Shown here: in pieces, positions 53,808 through 62,657 of the stretch
Position numbering within the stretch: position 1 is the first letter of the stretch
How the letters are laid out: each line of letters opens with the position of its first letter
NCBI RefSeq assembly: GCF_009429125.1
Contig: NZ_CP045529.1
Location: 434,001 to 498,000 of the forward strand
Source of the DNA: Luteimicrobium xylanilyticum
Lineage (GTDB): Bacteria; Actinomycetota; Actinomycetes; Actinomycetales; Cellulomonadaceae
Direction of reading: 5' to 3'
DNA: 64,000 nucleotides
Notes under the pieces: generated by a model
What the model was told of the DNA's origin: nothing
Seen by the model: the letters and a program-made list of their open reading frames with translations, nothing else
Database searches by the model: none
Program-made: the position numbers and the translations under genes

Positions 53808-54122
53808 TCAGTGCAAGCGATGCGGCTCGGGGACCTCGATCGTGATCCCACCGGGACGGTTCTGGAAGATGTCGATCACAAAGGCAGGGACAGAAGTGTC
53901 GTAGACGTCGCAGAGGGCCACCAGCGTTGAAAGACGGGGGTTCGCGGGCGTTCGTTTTGTCCGGTCCGACAGCCCGGACTCGAGGAGTTGGTAGTGGTTG
54001 CGGTTCATACCCGCCCGGTGGGCGACCTGCTCCTGCGTCAGCCCCGCCGCCGCCCGCAAGGCACGCAGCCGATCGGCAAGGGCGTCGGCGAGCCGACGCT
54101 CGAGCTGCGATTCCTGGGGCAC
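53808..54122 (-). CDS. XRE-family helix-turn-helix regulator
   Basis: 104 residues. The helix-turn-helix reads LRALRAAAGLTQEQVAHRAGMNRNHYQLLESGLSDRTKRTPANPRLSTLVALCDVYDTSVPAFV (about 18-85), similar to controller proteins of restriction-modification loci and to antitoxin HigA types. The C-terminus (IDIFQNRPGGITIEVPEPHRLH) is short. It is transcribed divergently from the methyltransferase with 131 bases between and probably controls both promoters. Confidence 0.85.
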   Translation of the reverse strand: MPQESQLERRLADALADRLRALRAAAGLTQEQVAHRAGMNRNHYQLLESGLSDRTKRTPANPRLSTLVALCDVYDTSVPAFVIDIFQNRPGGITIEVPEPHRLH

Positions 54123-54253
54123 CTGTTCACCCTCGCCGGGTATGCACGGCGCGTCAGCCTTGTAAACACGGTATTGGCCTGGCTAACCTCCGGGCGGGAG
54201 GCCGTGCTCATGCGGTCCCCTCAGACTCGCGCACCACCTTGGGGGACACTGCC

Positions 54254-57200
54254 ATGTCGGCTTCCGACTCCTTTCTGGCGGACTTCCGGCGGCGTCACTG
54301 GGCGGCGGACGGCGAGGTTGTCGCCGGGCTGAAGCCGCTCGGCTACTACAGCCCAGCGTCGGGTCGGGCGCTCGAGGTCGCAGTGGCGCATGCGGAGTCG
54401 AAGCCGACCAAGGCGGACGCTCGGCGGTTGTGGAACGAGCGGCACCGCGGACGGTCGACGGGTGTGCTGCTGGTCGTCATCTATCCCGGCCCTGACGGTG
54501 AGGACCGTGCGGAGGTCGTCGGCCTGTACGACGACAGCGCTGTCGCCGATCTCGAGCTGTCACTCATTGAGCGCCGCCTTGCGGAGGCGCTCGACGCCGC
54601 GGCCGTCCATGAGGCCCAGGAACTGATGACCGGCCTCTTCGAGATCGCAGAGGGCGGCGTACAGGGGCTGCGTAACAAGGGCCTGTTTGCATCGCACGCG
54701 CTCGAGGTGAACACACCGGAGCGAAGCGACTGGGGCGAGGCCGCCTCATCGGCCCGAGTGGTGCGAGGAACGCGCGGCGAGGACTTGCTGCGTGCACTCG
54801 GTTGGGCGATCACGCCGGCGGGCGGCGATCTGCTGCTCCGACCCCAGGGCCGCGAACGCGACCGTGCTGTCGCGGTGCTGCTCGAGGGGGATGAGGTCTT
54901 CGACCGTCCCGCGTTCCGCTACGGTCTTGGCGTCTCTCCGGTCGAGCACGGGCTGGAGGTCGCCCGCCAGCAGGAGCTTCCCTGGGTCCTCGCCGTGCGC
55001 GGTTCGACGGTCCGGCTCTACGCGGCTGATCCGGACGTCGGCGTGACACGCACGGGAGCGGCATCCTTCACCGAGCTCACCGTCGACCTGCTCGACGATG
55101 ACAATCTCGCCTACGTGTGGCTCCTGCTCACGCCGCGAGCTCTCGACGTTGACGGCACCGCGGATGACATCCTGCGCGACTCGCGCGAGCATGCCACGAG
55201 CCTTGGCGAGCGGCTGCGGGAGCGGATCTACCGTGACGTCATCCCGGACCTCTCAGAGACAATCGCCGCAAAGCTCGGCAAGCTCGACGAGAAGGGGCTC
55301 GACGACGCGTACCATGACACGCTCGTCGTGCTGTTCCGATTGCTGTTCGTCGCCTACGCGGAGGACCGTGGGCTTCTTCCCTTCGGCCTTCGCACATCTG
55401 CTGGTGCCGTGTATACGCGGGTCGCGCTGAAGACTCGGGCGATCGGCTACGCGGAGCAGCTCCGCGATGGCGTGGCCCCCAGGTATGACGGTCACGCGAC
55501 CGACGTCTGGGACGACCTGGCATCGATCTGGGACGGCATCTATCACGGGCACGTCGGCTGGGGCGTGCCGGAGTATGGCGGTGCCCTGTTCCGCCAGGAC
55601 TCCGGTCCCGGCCGGGAACTCGCTGGCATCACACTGGGCAACCGGGAGATCGAGCCCGCGCTCGTGGCGCTGCTCGTCGACACCGGTCGTGACGGGACGC
55701 TCGGCCCGGTGGACTTTCAGGCCCTGTCGGTGCGTGAGTTCGGAACGATCTACGAGGGGCTGCTCGAGTCGTCGCTCTCGCTCGCGCCGACAGACCTGAC
55801 GCTCGACAAGAACGATGCGTACGTGCCCGCGAAGCCGGGCGACGAGGTGATCGTCCCGGCAGGAAAGGTCTACTTTCATAACGCGTCCGGGGCGCGCAAA
55901 GCCAGCGGTTCCTACTTCACGAAGGAATTCGCGGTCGAGCACCTGCTCCAGACGGCGCTCGACCCCACGCTCGCCGAACATCTCGACCGCGTCGCGGTGC
56001 TCCTCGACGACGGCAAGGAGGGGGACGCCGCCGAGGCGCTCTTCGACTTCCGTGTTGCTGACATCGCGATGGGATCGGGCCACTTCCTGGTCGCTGCGGT
56101 AGACCACCTCGCGGCAGCGATCAGTGGGTTCCTCGATCGCCGACCGATCCCAGAGGTCCGAGCGGAGCTCGATCGGATCCGGTCCGCAGCGTTCGAAAAG
56201 CTCGCAGCCGTCGGGATCAGCGGTGCCGATGCTCCCGAGATCACACACGAGGCGCTTCTTCGCCGTCAGGTCGCTCGACGCTGCATCTACGGCGTCGACA
56301 TCAACGAGATCGCCGTCGACCTCGCGCGGCTGGCACTGTGGATCCACACGTTCGTCCCCGGCCTGCCCATGTCTTCCCTGGATCACGGACTGGTCCACGG
56401 GAACTCACTCACCGGGATCGGCACGATCGACGAGGCGCTCGACGCGCTGGAGCCGGAGCGGGTCGGCGGGTTCGCTGGGGTCCAGAGCCTCTTCGGCGAC
56501 GCTATTGCGGATGCGATGGCTGCGACCGGTGAGCCGCTCGCGCGGGCGGCCCGGATCAGCGAGGTCTCGGTCGCTGAGACGCTCGCGGCGGAGAAGCTCG
56601 CGGCCAACGCTGCTGCGGAGGTCGCTCCCGTTGCCCGCGTGTTCGATGCGATCGTGGCCGTACGTGGTGGCGTGAATGCGCTCCGCCTGCGGGAGATCGC
56701 GGCGACGGGCTGGGAGCGACTCGTCGCGGCCGGAGGGCGAGCCGATGTCCGGGAGGTCGTCGGCTCGTTGAAGCCTGTCCACTTCCCGGTCGCGTTCCCC
56801 GAAGCCTTCCGGCCGGGGCGGGCTCGACCGGGGTTCGACGTGATCCTCGGCAACCCGCCATGGGAAGAAGCTACCGTCGAAGAGGACAAGTTCTGGGGGA
56901 TGCATGACCCGCACCTCCGCGCTGCGTCCTCGGCCGAGTCCAGCAAAAGGATCGAGGTCCTGCGGCGAGCCCGCCCCGACCTCGTTGCCGAGCTCGACGA
57001 TCAGCGCGCTGTTGCCGAGAGATATCGCCGCTACCTTCTCGATGGCCCGTATCCCGGGATGGGCACGGGGGACCCCGACCTCTACAAAGCGTTCTGCTGG
57101 CGGTTCTCCAGCCTCGTTCGGAGCCAAGGGCGGATTGGCGTGGTCCTCCCTCGAAGTCCCTTCGCAACCAAGGGTTCGGCGCCGTGGCGACTGTCGCTCC

Positions 57201-58315
57201 TTCCGGCGGCTGCGACGACGATCTACTTTGCGGTGAATGAGAAGGAGTGGATCTTCACCGACGTCAACCCTGGCTGGCCAGTTGCGCTGATGACCTCTCA
57301 GGTCGGTGCCGCGAGCCCCCTGCTGCGTGTGGCAGGCCCGTACCGCGACCAGCGGTCCTTCGAACGCGGCCGAGCAGCTGCCCCCACCGACATACCGCTC
57401 GCTCGATTGGCTGAAGTCGATCCGCTCATGTGTGTGCCGGTTGTCGACAGTGACGAGGCGCTCAGCATTTTCGCCCAGCTCATCACTCATCCGCCAATCG
57501 GAGTGGCGCGGCCGGATTTTGATGTGCGACCAGCGACGGAACTTCATGCCACGAACGATGGGAAGAAGCGCTTCTTCACAAACCGGGCCTCGGACTGGCC
57601 GGTCTATAATCACCTCAACGTTGGGCATTTTGTCTTTGAACCCGGTGTTGGCGCCTTCAATTATGTGGACTGGACAGCGGTCACGACAGAGTTGCAACGG
57701 CGACGCTTGAGCACGTTTATGCGCAGCGACTCGCCAATGCGTGGAATCTCGCGCGATGTCGTGGCAGATGCATCGACTCTTCCCGCGCGACACGCCCGCA
57801 TCCTCATTCGCGACGTAGTGCATTCGTCAAACCCGCGCAAGATTTGGGCGGCACTGGCGCCTGCTGAGACGTTGGTGACAAACACGGCTCCGTACCTGCA
57901 TTTCGCAAGCGGGACGCAAATGGCACAGGCCTACCTGCTCGGAATTCTAAATTCCGCTGTCTGTGACTGGTTTGGACACCTTCGCGTCTCTCTTCACTTC
58001 AATTTCTTTATCTTCAACACTGTTCCAGTGCCATTGTTCGATGATGGGGACGCGCGTTGTGTTCATCTGGCGGCGCTCTCAGGGCGACTTGCCTTGGCGG
58101 CGCGTGACGGCTATGGCGAATGGGGAGCCTTTGGACGCCCTATCGAAGTTCCCAGTGAACGCGCTGAGTCGATCGCAGAGATCGATGCCATCGCTTCACT
58201 TCTGTATGGCTTGTCCGACGCGCAGCTCGAGTTTGTCTTCGACCGGCCCACTCGGTCTTCCGTGGCGCACGTTCGGCGCTACCGCGAGAAGTGGTCGGCG
58301 GGCGATGTCGCATGA
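54254..58315 (+). CDS. Large N6-adenine DNA methyltransferase (Eco57I/PglX-like)
   Basis: 1353 residues from ATG 54254, with GGGGGA eight bases upstream. The first 380 residues resemble the nuclease-like start of type IIG enzymes (VLLEGDEVFD...ELPWVLAVRGSTVRLY) but no PD-(D/E)xK set is clear. SAM motif I is VADIAMGSGHFLVAAVDHL (about 599), another conserved strand is RCIYGVDINEIAVDLARLALWI, and catalytic motif IV is GNPPWEE (about 866-872). The last 450 residues would be the target-recognition part; there G+C falls to about 43-53 % in the rows counted, against 73 % at the start of the gene. Its stop overlaps the helicase start by four bases. It probably marks self DNA. Confidence 0.88.
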   Translation: MSASDSFLADFRRRHWAADGEVVAGLKPLGYYSPASGRALEVAVAHAESKPTKADARRLWNERHRGRSTGVLLVVIYPGPDGEDRAEVVGLYDDSAVADLELSLIERRLAEALDAAAVHEAQELMTGLFEIAEGGVQGLRNKGLFASHALEVNTPERSDWGEAASSARVVRGTRGEDLLRALGWAITPAGGDLLLRPQGRERDRAVAVLLEGDEVFDRPAFRYGLGVSPVEHGLEVARQQELPWVLAVRGSTVRLYAADPDVGVTRTGAASFTELTVDLLDDDNLAYVWLLLTPRALDVDGTADDILRDSREHATSLGERLRERIYRDVIPDLSETIAAKLGKLDEKGLDDAYHDTLVVLFRLLFVAYAEDRGLLPFGLRTSAGAVYTRVALKTRAIGYAEQLRDGVAPRYDGHATDVWDDLASIWDGIYHGHVGWGVPEYGGALFRQDSGPGRELAGITLGNREIEPALVALLVDTGRDGTLGPVDFQALSVREFGTIYEGLLESSLSLAPTDLTLDKNDAYVPAKPGDEVIVPAGKVYFHNASGARKASGSYFTKEFAVEHLLQTALDPTLAEHLDRVAVLLDDGKEGDAAEALFDFRVADIAMGSGHFLVAAVDHLAAAISGFLDRRPIPEVRAELDRIRSAAFEKLAAVGISGADAPEITHEALLRRQVARRCIYGVDINEIAVDLARLALWIHTFVPGLPMSSLDHGLVHGNSLTGIGTIDEALDALEPERVGGFAGVQSLFGDAIADAMAATGEPLARAARISEVSVAETLAAEKLAANAAAEVAPVARVFDAIVAVRGGVNALRLREIAATGWERLVAAGGRADVREVVGSLKPVHFPVAFPEAFRPGRARPGFDVILGNPPWEEATVEEDKFWGMHDPHLRAASSAESSKRIEVLRRARPDLVAELDDQRAVAERYRRYLLDGPYPGMGTGDPDLYKAFCWRFSSLVRSQGRIGVVLPRSPFATKGSAPWRLSLLPAAATTIYFAVNEKEWIFTDVNPGWPVALMTSQVGAASPLLRVAGPYRDQRSFERGRAAAPTDIPLARLAEVDPLMCVPVVDSDEALSIFAQLITHPPIGVARPDFDVRPATELHATNDGKKRFFTNRASDWPVYNHLNVGHFVFEPGVGAFNYVDWTAVTTELQRRRLSTFMRSDSPMRGISRDVVADASTLPARHARILIRDVVHSSNPRKIWAALAPAETLVTNTAPYLHFASGTQMAQAYLLGILNSAVCDWFGHLRVSLHFNFFIFNTVPVPLFDDGDARCVHLAALSGRLALAARDGYGEWGAFGRPIEVPSERAESIAEIDAIASLLYGLSDAQLEFVFDRPTRSSVAHVRRYREKWSAGDVA

Positions 58316-61300
58316 GCAACCGTCCGGAGTTCGCCACCAACAGTCCAGCTACGCCGGGCTCGACGATTCCGGGGGAGACGGTCGCTGACGCGATCACGGG
58401 CGTCCTTGAAGGACTGGTCGCCAAGCTCAAAGAGCCTCCGCGGTTGGACGTTGCGACGGCGTACTTCAACGTCGGTGGCTTCAACCTCCTGGCCGAGGCG
58501 CTTGAGACCGTTGGCTCGGTTCGTCTACTTCTGGGCACCGAGCCATCGGAGTTCGAGGTCCGCAGCACCATCACCCCGCTGAGCGTCCGCGAGGCGCACC
58601 GTGGCGACCCGCGACGAGACGAGGCCAACGCCGCCTACCTCGGTGCGCTTGCCCAGGACCGCGATCTCGTGGGCTTCGGTCGCGAGGCCGACGCGGCGTC
58701 CGAACGGCTCATCACCTGGCTGCGTCGGGGCGATGTTGAGGTACGGCGACTTACCCGGGGGTTCCTGCATGGCAAGGCCTTCATCCTCCGTCACGACGGC
58801 GACGCAGCTCTCGCAGGATCCGCCAACCTCACGTACGCCGGGCTCGCCCGGAACAAGGAGCTTGTTCTCGGGGTCTACCACCCGTCCACCGTCGACCGGG
58901 TCCATGAGTGGTTCGAGGAACAGTGGGGCGAGGCCGAGGACTTTGACCTTGCGGATCTCTACGAGGCGCGCCGTGTTCCGCACAACCCGTGGCACGTCTT
59001 CCTGCGCATGCTTCTCGCTCTCTACGGCAACGACCTCGAGACGGATCTCAAGACGACCAACGAGCTCGGACTGTCCGACTTCCAAGTGGACGGAGTGTGG
59101 CGCGCGCAGCGCATCCTCGACCGACGGGGCGGCGTGATCGTCGCGGACGAGGTCGGCCTCGGCAAGACGTTCATCGCCGGTGAACTCATTCGGCAGGCGG
59201 CGGTTGTCCGACGACAGAAGGTCCTCGTCATCGCTCCTGCGACTCTGCGCGACTCGACCTGGAACCCGTTCCTGCGCGAGAAGAACATCCGCGCTGACGT
59301 CGTTTCGTACGAAGAGTTGGTCCGAGAGCTCGAAGCCGCCGGGACAGCCGCGTCGAAACTTCAGGACCTCGACGAGTACGCGATGGTTGTCGTCGACGAG
59401 GCGCACAACCTCCGCAACGCCGCGACCCAGCGTGCTGACGCGATGCGGGAGCTCCTCGGCGGATCAGTGGGGAAGGACCTGCTCCTTCTAACCGCGACTC
59501 CGGTCAACAACAGCCTCCAGGATCTGCAGACTCTCGTCGGCTTCATCAGCCCCTCGGATACCGCCTTCGCCGACGTCGGGGTACGCAGCGTCCGCCAGTA
59601 CATCGGCGCCGCCATGGCGCTCGACCCTGAGGAACTCAGCGGACAGCACCTCTTCGAGCTGCTCGACGCCATCGCGGTCCGTCGCACCCGACGCTTCATC
59701 AAGACCCAATACCCGAACGCACTGATCAACGGCAAGCCGATCGTGTTCCCACAGGCCGTCGTCCAGCGTGTCGACTACGACCTCGACGCGGTGCTGCCGG
59801 GCTTCTTCGGAACCTTCGCGCATGCGCTGGGCGCCGACCGCGACGAGATCGGTGCGGTCCGCTCTGCCGGTGAGCCCGACCCGGACGTCCTCACGATGGC
59901 GCGCTACGTGCCTTCGCGCTTCCTCCTCGGCTCGGCCCCGGAGGAGCAGTTCCAGGTGCAGAATGCGGGGCTGCTTCAGTCCGCCCTGCTCAAGCGCTTC
60001 GAGTCGTCGGCAATCGCCTTCACGCGCACCGTCCGCACGATGATCGCGTCACAAGACCAGTTCCTCGCTGCGCTCGACGGCGGCTGGGTGCTGACGGGAG
60101 ACGCACTGCGGTCCTGGGTTGCGAGCGACACGGACGACGTCGACCAGTTGGTCGCCGAGCTCGACGACGAAGCGCGGGACAACGCACAGCTCGCGGCCAT
60201 CTACGACGTCGCCGCGCTGCGTGCGGCGGTCGAGTCCGACCGAGCCCTGCTCGACCGGCTCGCCGCCGCGTCGGGCACCGTGACGGCAGCGAACGACCCC
60301 AAGATCGACGCACTCGTCGAGAGACTCGCCGAGATCGCACACTCCGCGCGGCAGGAGGGGATCGGTGACGAGGACACCCGTGATCGGCGCAAGGTCCTGA
60401 TCTTCACGTACTTCGCCGACACAGCGCAGCACATCCACGACGCGCTTCGGGACCGCATCGATACCGACGACCGCCTGGCGGACTACCGAGGGAGGCTTGT
60501 CATGGCCACGGGTCGTGACCGGGACGAGCGCCAGAAGGCTATCGTCGGCTTTGCTCCACGCACGGCGGGCACCGCCCAGGACGAGGACCTGTTCGACATC
60601 GCCGTCGCGACCGACGTCCTCTCCGAGGGGGTCAACCTTCAGCAGGCCGGCCGGATCATCAACTATGACCTGCCGTGGAACCCGATGCGGTTGGTGCAGC
60701 GGCACGGCCGCGTCGACCGCATCGGTTCGACGCACCGGCACATCTACCTGGCCTGCTTCTTTCCTGATGATGAGCTCGAGGACCTGCTTGACCTTGAGGC
60801 GCGCCTCCAACGCAAGATCAACCAGGCAGCGGCCGCGTTCGGTACGTCCGCGATCCTGCCGGGAGTCGAGGAGGTTGACCGTGTCCTCGCGGAGACCCGC
60901 GACCAGATCACCCGGCTACGGGAGGAGGAGGCGTCGCTGTTCGGCGACGAGGTTGGCGCAGCGGCTTCGTCGGAGGAGTTTCAGCGGCGTCTCGCGCGAG
61001 CGTTCGGGTCGTCACCAGTGACCAAGAGGGCCGTCGAGAACCTTCCCTGGGGTGCGGGTTCGGGGATCGTTCGTGACGGCCACGGACCGGGGATCGTGTA
61101 TTGCGTGCGGATCGCGGACCATCCGAGGCCGCAGTTTCGATACGTGCCGCTCGAACACGCCGACGACGGGCACTACGAGCCGCGAAGGCTTGAAGGTAAG
61201 CCCGAGATCATCGACAGGTTGCTCGCCTGCCTCAATCATGCCGACCCAAGAAGCCCGGACGCGGGAGCGGTGCTCCCGCGAGCGTTGCACGACGCCATCC

Positions 61301-61677
61301 TCGACACGTGGCCGCTCGTCCAGCAGGCGATCTACGACGACTGGATGGCGCAGGTTGACCCCGCGGCCGTCGAGCCGTCGATTCCCCGCGCGATGCTCGA
61401 CGCGAGCGAGCTCATCCGACGGCACGGGGGAATCGTCGGTGAACGCCAGGACGCGCTCGTCCAGCGCTACGGTCAGGTCGTCGACAACCGGATCGTGCGC
61501 GATGTCCGAGGAACTCTACGGCGTTACGAGGGCGACGCCGAGGCAGGAGTGCGGGCGCTCGCGGAGCTCGCCGACGCGCTGCGACTACCGATCCCTGTTC
61601 CCGTCGAGCCGCTGCCTGAGATCGAGTTCGACGACGTCCGCGTGCTCTGCTGGATGGCGGTCCAGGGGGCGCCCTGA
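58312..61677 (+). CDS. PLD-nuclease/SNF2-like helicase fusion
   Basis: 1121 residues from ATG 58312, coupled to the methyltransferase. Residues about 30-200 are a phospholipase-D-type module with a single HxK motif: HGKAFILRHDGDAALAGSANLT (His153, Lys155, later Gly-Ser-x-Asn at 168-171). One HKD half per chain implies a dimeric nuclease. The SF2/SNF2 engine follows: Walker A DEVGLGKT (279-286), VVDEAHN (about 360), TATPVNN, then the C-terminal lobe with VATDVLSEGVNLQQA and QRHGRVDRIGS (about 796). A further 300 residues have no assignment. It would move on DNA and cut unmodified invaders. Confidence 0.88.
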   Translation: MSNRPEFATNSPATPGSTIPGETVADAITGVLEGLVAKLKEPPRLDVATAYFNVGGFNLLAEALETVGSVRLLLGTEPSEFEVRSTITPLSVREAHRGDPRRDEANAAYLGALAQDRDLVGFGREADAASERLITWLRRGDVEVRRLTRGFLHGKAFILRHDGDAALAGSANLTYAGLARNKELVLGVYHPSTVDRVHEWFEEQWGEAEDFDLADLYEARRVPHNPWHVFLRMLLALYGNDLETDLKTTNELGLSDFQVDGVWRAQRILDRRGGVIVADEVGLGKTFIAGELIRQAAVVRRQKVLVIAPATLRDSTWNPFLREKNIRADVVSYEELVRELEAAGTAASKLQDLDEYAMVVVDEAHNLRNAATQRADAMRELLGGSVGKDLLLLTATPVNNSLQDLQTLVGFISPSDTAFADVGVRSVRQYIGAAMALDPEELSGQHLFELLDAIAVRRTRRFIKTQYPNALINGKPIVFPQAVVQRVDYDLDAVLPGFFGTFAHALGADRDEIGAVRSAGEPDPDVLTMARYVPSRFLLGSAPEEQFQVQNAGLLQSALLKRFESSAIAFTRTVRTMIASQDQFLAALDGGWVLTGDALRSWVASDTDDVDQLVAELDDEARDNAQLAAIYDVAALRAAVESDRALLDRLAAASGTVTAANDPKIDALVERLAEIAHSARQEGIGDEDTRDRRKVLIFTYFADTAQHIHDALRDRIDTDDRLADYRGRLVMATGRDRDERQKAIVGFAPRTAGTAQDEDLFDIAVATDVLSEGVNLQQAGRIINYDLPWNPMRLVQRHGRVDRIGSTHRHIYLACFFPDDELEDLLDLEARLQRKINQAAAAFGTSAILPGVEEVDRVLAETRDQITRLREEEASLFGDEVGAAASSEEFQRRLARAFGSSPVTKRAVENLPWGAGSGIVRDGHGPGIVYCVRIADHPRPQFRYVPLEHADDGHYEPRRLEGKPEIIDRLLACLNHADPRSPDAGAVLPRALHDAILDTWPLVQQAIYDDWMAQVDPAAVEPSIPRAMLDASELIRRHGGIVGERQDALVQRYGQVVDNRIVRDVRGTLRRYEGDAEAGVRALAELADALRLPIPVPVEPLPEIEFDDVRVLCWMAVQGAP

Positions 61678-61752: not shown

Positions 61753-61938
61753 ATGGTCCCCATCGTCGTCACCAGCATGACACCCGCCGAGGCACGAGTC
61801 CGGCGCGAGGAGATCGTCCGTCGTGTCGGTGGCGACGAGTCGGCGTTCCGTGACCGAGCGGAGGCGTATCTGCTGTCCGCTGAGGAGCTCGCGCTGTACG
61901 ACGAGCTCGAGAACCTCGACTTCCTCCTCGGGGAGTGA
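61753..61938 (+). CDS. Small helical protein, first of a coupled pair
   Basis: 61 residues from ATG 61753, six bases after AGGAG; TTG 61747 would add two residues. The sequence SMTPAEARVRREEIVRRVGG then FRDRAEAYLLSAEELALYDELENLDFLLGE is charged and helical, with no cysteine and no known domain. Small proteins of this kind precede a ~230-residue partner in other actinobacteria, as far as I recall, but I cannot name a family. Its stop overlaps the next start by four bases (GTGA), so they are made together. Confidence 0.7.
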   Translation: MVPIVVTSMTPAEARVRREEIVRRVGGDESAFRDRAEAYLLSAEELALYDELENLDFLLGE

Positions 61939-62657
61939 ACGACGAGGGGCTGATCGGCGAGGCGCGGCAATTCGCCACCGAGCTCTCCGCCACGGTGCAG
62001 GGCCTCGTGCCTGACTGTGCGCCCTTCTCGGTTCAGAGTGTCGGGCGCCGCATCGCGGTCGAGCAGGAGCCTGGCACCGGCATCCCCTTGCGGGTGACTG
62101 GGCGTCCGCTTCTGACGCTCAAGGTCGTGATGCACCTTGAGGGCGATACGTCCGGTCAGTACCTCGCTGTCGAGAGCTCGAACTTTGTGGTCTACGAGGG
62201 CGACAGGGCTGCTGGCGAGCCACTGTTCCGCTATGACTACGTCCGGTCGCCGGTGTCGGAGATCCCGGCCGCCCACCTCCAACTGCACGCTCACCGCGAC
62301 GCGATCGCCTACGTCATGGCACAGACCGGCACGTCGTCAGCCCGTGGGAAGCGCCGGGCGAAGAAGGCATCCGTACCGCATCTTGCTGAGCTGCACTTCC
62401 CGCTCGGTGGCCATCGGTTCCGCCCCTGCCTCGAGGACCTACTCGAGATGCTGGTCTCCGAGTTCGGCGTCGACTGCTCGAAGGAGGGACGCGAGGCGCT
62501 TCGCCGGGGTCGTGAGAAGTGGCGACGACAACAGACGCGCAGTGTCGTCCGCGACGCGCCCCAGGATGCGGTCGACATCTTGAGGGAACTGGGCTATCGA
62601 ATCGAGCCTCCCGCGCCGGAGCCGGCGAGCAACGTCGCTCGGCTCCGCGCACTGTAG
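61935..62657 (+). CDS. Uncharacterised 240-residue protein, second of the coupled pair
   Basis: 240 residues from GTG 61935. Visible elements: a beta-rich first half (IPLRVTGRPLLTLKVVMHLEGDTSGQYLAVESSNFVVYE), HLQLHAHRDAIAYVMAQTG with two His, a basic linker (ARGKRRAKKAS), HLAELHFPLGGHRFRPCLEDLLEMLVSEFGVDC and a basic helix (EALRRGREKWRRQQTRSVVRD). I do not recognise the family. Paired conserved His and the small acidic/helical partner could fit a toxin with an antitoxin, but no catalytic set is proven. It ends the island; the next gene has its own spacing. Confidence 0.65.
   Translation: MNDEGLIGEARQFATELSATVQGLVPDCAPFSVQSVGRRIAVEQEPGTGIPLRVTGRPLLTLKVVMHLEGDTSGQYLAVESSNFVVYEGDRAAGEPLFRYDYVRSPVSEIPAAHLQLHAHRDAIAYVMAQTGTSSARGKRRAKKASVPHLAELHFPLGGHRFRPCLEDLLEMLVSEFGVDCSKEGREALRRGREKWRRQQTRSVVRDAPQDAVDILRELGYRIEPPAPEPASNVARLRAL

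Follow-up and report, generated by a model that had tools for sequence, protein, structure and literature searches.

We analyzed a 64,000-nucleotide stretch of Luteimicrobium xylanilyticum DNA (the window, bases 434001-498000 of a single-contig genome of 4.21 Mb), in which two overlapping forward-strand genes, at 488-496 kb of the genome, encode a putative DNA defense system. The first (window positions 54254..58315; ATG at 54254, stop codon at 58313-58315) encodes an N6-adenine DNA methyltransferase of 1353 aa with a C-terminal target-recognition region. The second (58312..61677; ATG at 58312) encodes a 1121-aa PLD(HKD)-SNF2 protein, in which an N-terminal phospholipase D (PLD)-type nuclease domain is joined to a SWI2/SNF2 ATPase motor. 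The methyltransferase stop and the helicase start share the sequence ATGA (58312..58315, + strand), suggesting that the two are translationally coupled. Divergent from the methyltransferase, a gene on the reverse strand (53808..54122) encodes an XRE-family helix-turn-helix regulator of 104 aa (HTH_31, 48 bits). A first-pass annotation of this DNA had described the methyltransferase, the divergent XRE gene, and an overlapping fusion of a PLD nuclease and an SNF2-like helicase, and all are borne out by the open reading frames (ORFs) and by Pfam, with the domains of the fusion above cut-off.

The methyltransferase is of the Eco57I type (Pfam Eco57I, 47 bits; cut-off 25). Its motif I, D603-x-A-M-G-S-x-H-F611, for binding of S-adenosylmethionine (56060..56086, + strand), retains D603, A605, M606, G607, S608, H610, and F611 without variation in 16 homologues, and motif IV, the N6-adenine catalytic NPPW (residues 867-870; 56852..56863, + strand), is invariant in the same set. 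The target-recognition region, approximately residues 991-1315 (57224..58200, + strand), is variable and repeatedly exchanged, as judged from identity drops, synonymous divergence (dS), and swaps in relatives, and gives a weak TaqI_C match below the Pfam cut-off. In the alignment of the 16 homologues we found no conserved PD-(D/E)xK (D...ExK) residues in positions 1-300 that would indicate a METHYLTRANSFERASE cutting site; a Pfam scan gives no nuclease domain in the methyltransferase, and a sequence search of the PDB returned no match to it. The N-terminal part (residues 1-545) nevertheless yields a confident AlphaFold model, with a predicted local distance difference test score (pLDDT) of 85.6.

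The partner protein carries PLDc_2 at residues 69-205 (40 bits; cut-off 27), and SNF2 and Helicase_C both exceed their Pfam cut-offs. Across 31 homologues its active-site motifs are kept: H153, K155, G169, S170, and N172 of the HKD-type nuclease motif H153-x-K155 ... G169-S170-x-N172 (58768..58827, + strand) are invariant, as are D279, G282, L283, G284, and K285 of SNF2 motif I (Walker A, D279EVGLGK285; 59146..59166, + strand). The same holds for D362, E363, and H365 of the motif II DEAH (residues 362-365; 59395..59406, + strand), with A364 nearly so, for motif III, and for Q796, R797, G799, R800, and R803 of motif VI, Q796-R-H-G-R-V-D-R803, which bears the arginine finger (60697..60720, + strand). 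A fold search with the helicase matches chromatin remodellers and RapA, and its PADLOC match is partial, to the HKD+Snf2 model PDLC01075 (C3a139, 167 bits), for which a literature search found no name. As the methyltransferase has no nuclease site that we could find, and its N-terminal model has no significant structural match, nuclease activity most likely resides in the PLD domain of its partner.

Evidence that the two genes belong together comes from their distribution. The first-pass annotation had proposed searching for the same gene pair elsewhere; it recurs in several phyla, in haloarchaea, and on plasmids, at mostly 37-54% identity across phyla, in some cases with other defense-type genes between the two. 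The closest helicase group forms one monophyletic branch (100/100 support) that spans Actinomycetota, Gemmatimonadota, Rhodothermota, Planctomycetota, Chloroflexota, and haloarchaea, and in every close relative among GTDB genomes with enough upstream sequence the methyltransferase, or its remains, lies 5' of the helicase on the same strand. The pairing holds in the reverse direction also. With the methyltransferase alone as query, and thus without conditioning on the helicase, 6 of 72,556 plasmid records were found, namely the six in which the close helicase group also occurs; among 395 genomes of the class, which are an even draw and not a census, the methyltransferase occurs in the same two that have the close helicase, adjacent to it in both. 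On all six plasmids the methyltransferase is annotated as "hypothetical protein." Phage records contain no close relative and one distant helicase only.

Of the named relatives in the set searched, Luteimicrobium album is the nearest; its helicase is 96% identical. Relative to this orthologue, the helicase has a ratio of nonsynonymous to synonymous divergence (dN/dS) of 0.10 and the methyltransferase core one of 0.09-0.11, so that the pair is under purifying selection. Together with the conservation across phyla, this argues that the gene pair is not a chance association, and it is a conserved unit, not a remnant. The module has a GC content of 0.60-0.70, compared to 0.71-0.77 in the left flank, which suggests horizontal acquisition. 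In the same-genus genome G002, homology ends where the M24 peptidase gene ends (53326) and the right flank is not collinear, so this comparison yields no clean empty site.

A second line of evidence concerns how the two proteins have diverged. Over 120 pairs, the amino-acid identity of methyltransferase residues 1-990 closely tracks that of the helicase (r=0.96), whereas the recognition region follows it weakly (r=0.45). The methyltransferases of Microbacterium enclense and M. schleiferi share 95% identity as far as residue 850, after which the figure is 40%, 24%, and 22% in successive stretches, while their helicases are 95% identical, with every 100-residue stretch at least 88% up to residue 1100. 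Between Nocardioides and Paenarthrobacter, identity falls from 88% to 46-64% at the recognition region, with helicases 89-93% identical, and among haloarchaea the corresponding fall is from 88% to 40-69%, with helicases 87% identical. Comparison of the window to L. album shows DNA identity falling from 95% to 71% and recovering within 57.6-58.2 kb, and dS is 0.62 in the recognition region versus 0.11-0.23 in the core. A control pair, Actinoplanes versus Rhodococcus (L028/L132), shows no identity drop in the methyltransferase. In four lineages, then, the recognition region has been swapped in the methyltransferase without a matching change in the helicase. A cutter that read sequence by itself would have had to change along with the swaps. 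The simplest inference is that it is guided by the methyltransferase, as Mod guides Res in Type III systems, and the specificity of cutting is thus probably supplied by the methyltransferase, in the manner of Type I and Type III restriction.

Taken together, these observations make it likely that the two genes form a complete ATP-dependent restriction-modification system, Type III-like in its logic and equipped with a PLD nuclease and an SNF2 motor. This reading is favored by the near-exclusive pairing, the invariant active sites, and the lack of the extra genes of the defense island system associated with restriction-modification (DISARM), of bacteriophage exclusion (BREX), and of the ARMADA and BREX-Related (BR) systems, as well as by purifying selection, horizontal spread, and recognition-region swaps that affect only the methyltransferase. 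The large protein would methylate adenine in a short target read by its C-terminal recognition region, so that host DNA is protected; at an unmethylated target, the recognition region would instead license the PLD-SNF2 fusion, acting as a dimer, to load, move along DNA with ATP, and cut. The logic would be that of Type III (Mod/Res) or Type I (M-S/R) enzymes, with the PLD nuclease and the SNF2 motor in the cutting protein. From sequence, we infer methylation, complex formation, translocation, cutting, and exclusion of phages or plasmids by the pair, which is probably self-contained as a DNA defense system. Whether it also represents an unnamed type of ATP-dependent restriction-modification, in which an Eco57I-like methyltransferase marks and recognizes and an HKD-SNF2 protein moves and cuts, with some "Type IIG" proteins being its modification halves, is in our judgment evenly balanced. 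We found no name for the pair in the tools searched or in open-access PubMed Central text, and a description elsewhere is possible.

Several points weigh against such a system. Each PLD-SNF2 chain has a single HKD motif, so that cutting would need dimerization; PLD nuclease dimerization is known for BfiI and SauUSI. A fold search with methyltransferase residues 1-545 against the PDB gave no significant match, and this modeled part may hold an unrecognized nuclease or sensor. It is possible that the cutter senses DNA structure or a general lack of methylation, and the swaps would likewise leave unaffected a helicase with a sequence-independent sensor of the kind proposed for DISARM. Exchange of recognition regions is also seen in methyltransferases used mainly for epigenetic switching. 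A point in favor of the system comes from L. album (L001, 4501-9998), in which the methyltransferase gene is split by an ISL3-like element with an 8-bp target duplication and the helicase remains open and conserved, an arrangement that is tolerable if the methyltransferase is required for cutting; further frameshifts in this copy may be assembly errors, the genome being 81% complete.

Of the alternatives, the one that survives best, though we regard it as unlikely, is that the methyltransferase provides only N6-methyladenine self-marking and that the PLD-SNF2 protein senses invaders by structure (ends, forks, or single-stranded DNA) or by missing marks, with no sequence-guided complex. Sensing without such a complex is proposed for DrmAB; for DISARM, detection of DNA structure with inhibition by methylation has been reported (PMC9142583). 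Among profiles, DrmD of DISARM and the HKD+Snf2 family of PADLOC are the best characterized relatives of the helicase; uniform conservation of the helicase across the swaps is compatible with sensing of this kind. However, repeated exchange of the recognition region in an otherwise intact module suggests that sequence specificity is under selection, the ATGA coupling and exclusive pairing favor a stoichiometric complex, and drmA/drmB-like partners are missing.

It is decidedly improbable that the methyltransferase is a genuine Type IIG enzyme that cuts alone, with the PLD-helicase as an accessory or a separate defense gene. The best PADLOC model for the methyltransferase is indeed REase_MTase_IIG (PDLC03620, 651 bits), which spans practically the full length (residues 59-1330), but this label is a filing of similar proteins rather than a test, and we rejected the identity for want of conserved nuclease residues in positions 1-300 of the 16 homologues or of a Pfam nuclease domain; moreover, the two genes are never separate in the sets searched. 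More distant HKD-SNF2 groups likewise pair with methyltransferases, in other gene orders, and some of these methyltransferases are filed as Type IIG. On two Rhodococcus plasmids (L138 and L158), a different HKD-SNF2 group has the order helicase then a 915-921-aa methyltransferase, which in L138 fits a PADLOC Type IIG model at 911 bits. Other IIG families may thus be halves of two-gene systems.

Still less probable is an orphan or regulatory methylation locus with the PLD-helicase acting in repair or recombination. SNF2/RapA-like proteins can be housekeeping, and the chromatin remodellers and RapA returned by the fold search fit such a role, but the distribution is rare, patchy, and plasmid-borne, and the locus is a low-GC island whose relatives carry other defense-type genes as cargo. 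Hardly credible, finally, is a decayed remnant of DISARM, BREX, ARMADA, or a DUF499-based BR system, for although the N6-methyltransferase, SNF2 helicase, and PLD domain are shared with these and an ARMADA-I-like operon stands elsewhere in the genome, at 2.25 Mb, the pair is intact and under purifying selection, its two-gene form is repeated on plasmids and in several phyla with no adjoining DrmB-type, PglZ, or DUF499 genes, and the genome-wide family searches described below largely refute it. The first-pass annotation had left the choice between a remnant and a compact, restriction-like system of two proteins; it is the compact system that stands, supported by reciprocal exclusive partners, intact active-site motifs, and recognition-region exchange confined to the methyltransferase.

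Neighboring genes appear to lie outside the system. The XRE gene, which the first-pass annotation had described as divergent from the methyltransferase, does exist and has a dN/dS of 0.057 versus L. album, but besides the window it accompanies the pair in L. album only among the loci compared; it is thus ruled out as a core part and is a probable local controller. A scan of 54100-54300 found no inverted-repeat operator. Just downstream of the pair, a 61-aa ORF (approximately 61757-61939) overlaps a 240-aa ORF (61935-62657), with no match in Pfam, NCBIfam, PADLOC, or PHROGs. The 240-aa protein is present in 25 of the 395 class genomes, mostly without the defense pair; it is often directly preceded by the small ORF, and in L013 it separates the methyltransferase from the helicase. 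These genes, at 61757-62657, look like a mobile two-gene cassette, possibly toxin-antitoxin-like, and their occurrence in other Actinomycetes without the pair rules them out as a core part.

Related loci show further variation. Between the methyltransferase and the helicase lie SIR2 with a HerA-like ATPase in L035 and ImmA/IrrE with PIN in L027 (both recognized by eye from sequence, not by profile), a DUF262 gene in Deinococcus, and a nucleotidyltransferase with SLATT in Microcystis. Insertions of other defense-type genes are familiar from restriction operons. Microbacteriaceae-type loci L014, L021, and L029 have extra genes upstream of the methyltransferase, including a family of 356-403 aa, and L021 and L029 have an additional upstream protein of 427-466 aa that looks DndB-like by eye. 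The methyltransferase frame is split in L006, L007, L009, L013, L017, L024, and L037, mostly metagenome-assembled genomes of Acidimicrobiia; in most of them the break lies close to the recognition region, and the C-terminal part is present twice in L006 and L013. The split frames could reflect decay or an arrangement for switching the recognition region.

Known systems built from these parts need more of them: DISARM requires DrmA and DrmB, BREX requires BrxC and PglZ, and DUF499 is part of BR systems. Should two proteins be enough here, the pair would offer a minimal setting for how an N6-methyltransferase licenses an SNF2-driven nuclease, a question that is open for DISARM and BREX, and the natural swaps of the recognition region are ready-made experiments on target specificity. 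Annotation would also be corrected, from "hypothetical protein" on plasmids and "Type IIG" in PADLOC, and a partner overlooked by defense censuses would be recognized.

Comparison with known systems places the pair apart from those that share its parts. We looked for further genes of a named system flanking the pair and found none. Whole-genome searches support the first-pass annotation on the absence of drmB-type and PglZ partners and show that DUF499 is lacking too. Class 1 DISARM (drmD, drmMI, drmA, drmB, drmC) resembles the pair in its DrmMI-type N6-methyltransferase (211 bits), its PLD nuclease, and its DrmD-type SNF2 helicase (148 bits in PADLOC, 181 bits in NCBIfam), but in the pair the PLD domain is fused to the helicase and drmA and drmB are lacking. 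The DrmD score lies far below the NCBIfam cut-off of 610 bits, and PglX gives 22 bits, with a curated cut-off of 500. Matches to the DrmA/DrmB core (DUF1998/MZB) occur in the genome as MZB only at 571 kb and 2256 kb, with none at the pair, and the only genome-wide match to BREX PglZ (PF08665) is marginal (24.8 bits, at 2.2 Mb). ARMADA type I combines a YprA helicase, a BrxHII-like helicase, and a PglX-like methyltransferase (PMC12458937) and shares with the pair an SNF2-type helicase adjoining an N6-methyltransferase, but the pair has no YprA helicase nearby. No YprA/DrmB-type gene lies within 75 kb of it, the two YprA-type genes of the genome being approximately 76 kb and 1.8 Mb away, and the pair is therefore neither DISARM nor ARMADA. 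One of the two belongs to the separate ARMADA type I-like operon outside the window (L154; G000:C1, approximately 2249.5-2261 kb), which encodes a YprA-family helicase (1740 aa), an SNF2 helicase (955 aa), and a methyltransferase-like protein (1078 aa); another SNF2 gene (1114 aa) lies close by.

Type-2 BR systems, for which a restriction-modification-like action has been proposed, unite a DUF499 ATPase, an N6-methyltransferase, an HKD-Swi2/Snf2 helicase, and DUF3780 (PMC12839542). The likeness lies in the N6-methyltransferase and in the HKD nuclease N-terminal to an SNF2 helicase; the pair differs in its lack of DUF499, its methyltransferase directly 5' of the helicase, and its helicase clade. 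DUF499 (PF04465) has no match anywhere in the genome, and two DUF499-linked HKD-Snf2 helicases (L145 and L151) fall outside the helicase clade of the pair with 100/99 support, so that the pair is not a Type-2 BR system. DUF499 is present in 13 of the 33 genomes searched; the best matches checked are either on a different contig or no closer than 0.2 Mb. The immediate downstream neighbors gave nothing above cut-off in the general Pfam scan, no genome-wide search being aimed at DUF3780.

Precedents for restriction by a PLD nuclease with a superfamily 2 (SF2) motor are found in SauUSI and CglI/NgoAVII, the cutting proteins of which have recognition domains of their own. SauUSI (Type IV) is a single chain with the PLD nuclease fused ahead of an SF2 translocating ATPase (PMC7913695); it has an SRA recognition domain and cuts modified DNA, whereas the pair keeps its recognition region in a separate methyltransferase. 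In CglI/NgoAVII, a PLD nuclease powered by an SF2 ATPase lies beside a methyltransferase (PMC4267653), but this is a C5-cytosine enzyme, the cutting subunit has its own B3 domain, and the DEAD/Z1 ATPase is a separate gene; the pair has no B3 or Z1 match in Pfam, its methyltransferase is N6-adenine (NPPW), and its PLD domain is fused to SNF2. Type ISP enzymes (LlaGI-like) hold nuclease, motor, methyltransferase, and target-recognition domain in one chain, and the pair in two. As far as the search output shows, PADLOC treats PDLC03620 and PDLC01075 as separate models and not as one system. A parallel in organization is Type III (Mod/Res). The Type III nuclease is PD-(D/E)xK, while the pair has a PLD nuclease, an SNF2 motor, and an Eco57I-like methyltransferase of 1353 aa, yet both consist of two genes, with recognition and methylation in one subunit and motor and nuclease in the other, and in both recognition is exchanged in the modification subunit only, for the pair in four lineages and independently of the restriction subunit.

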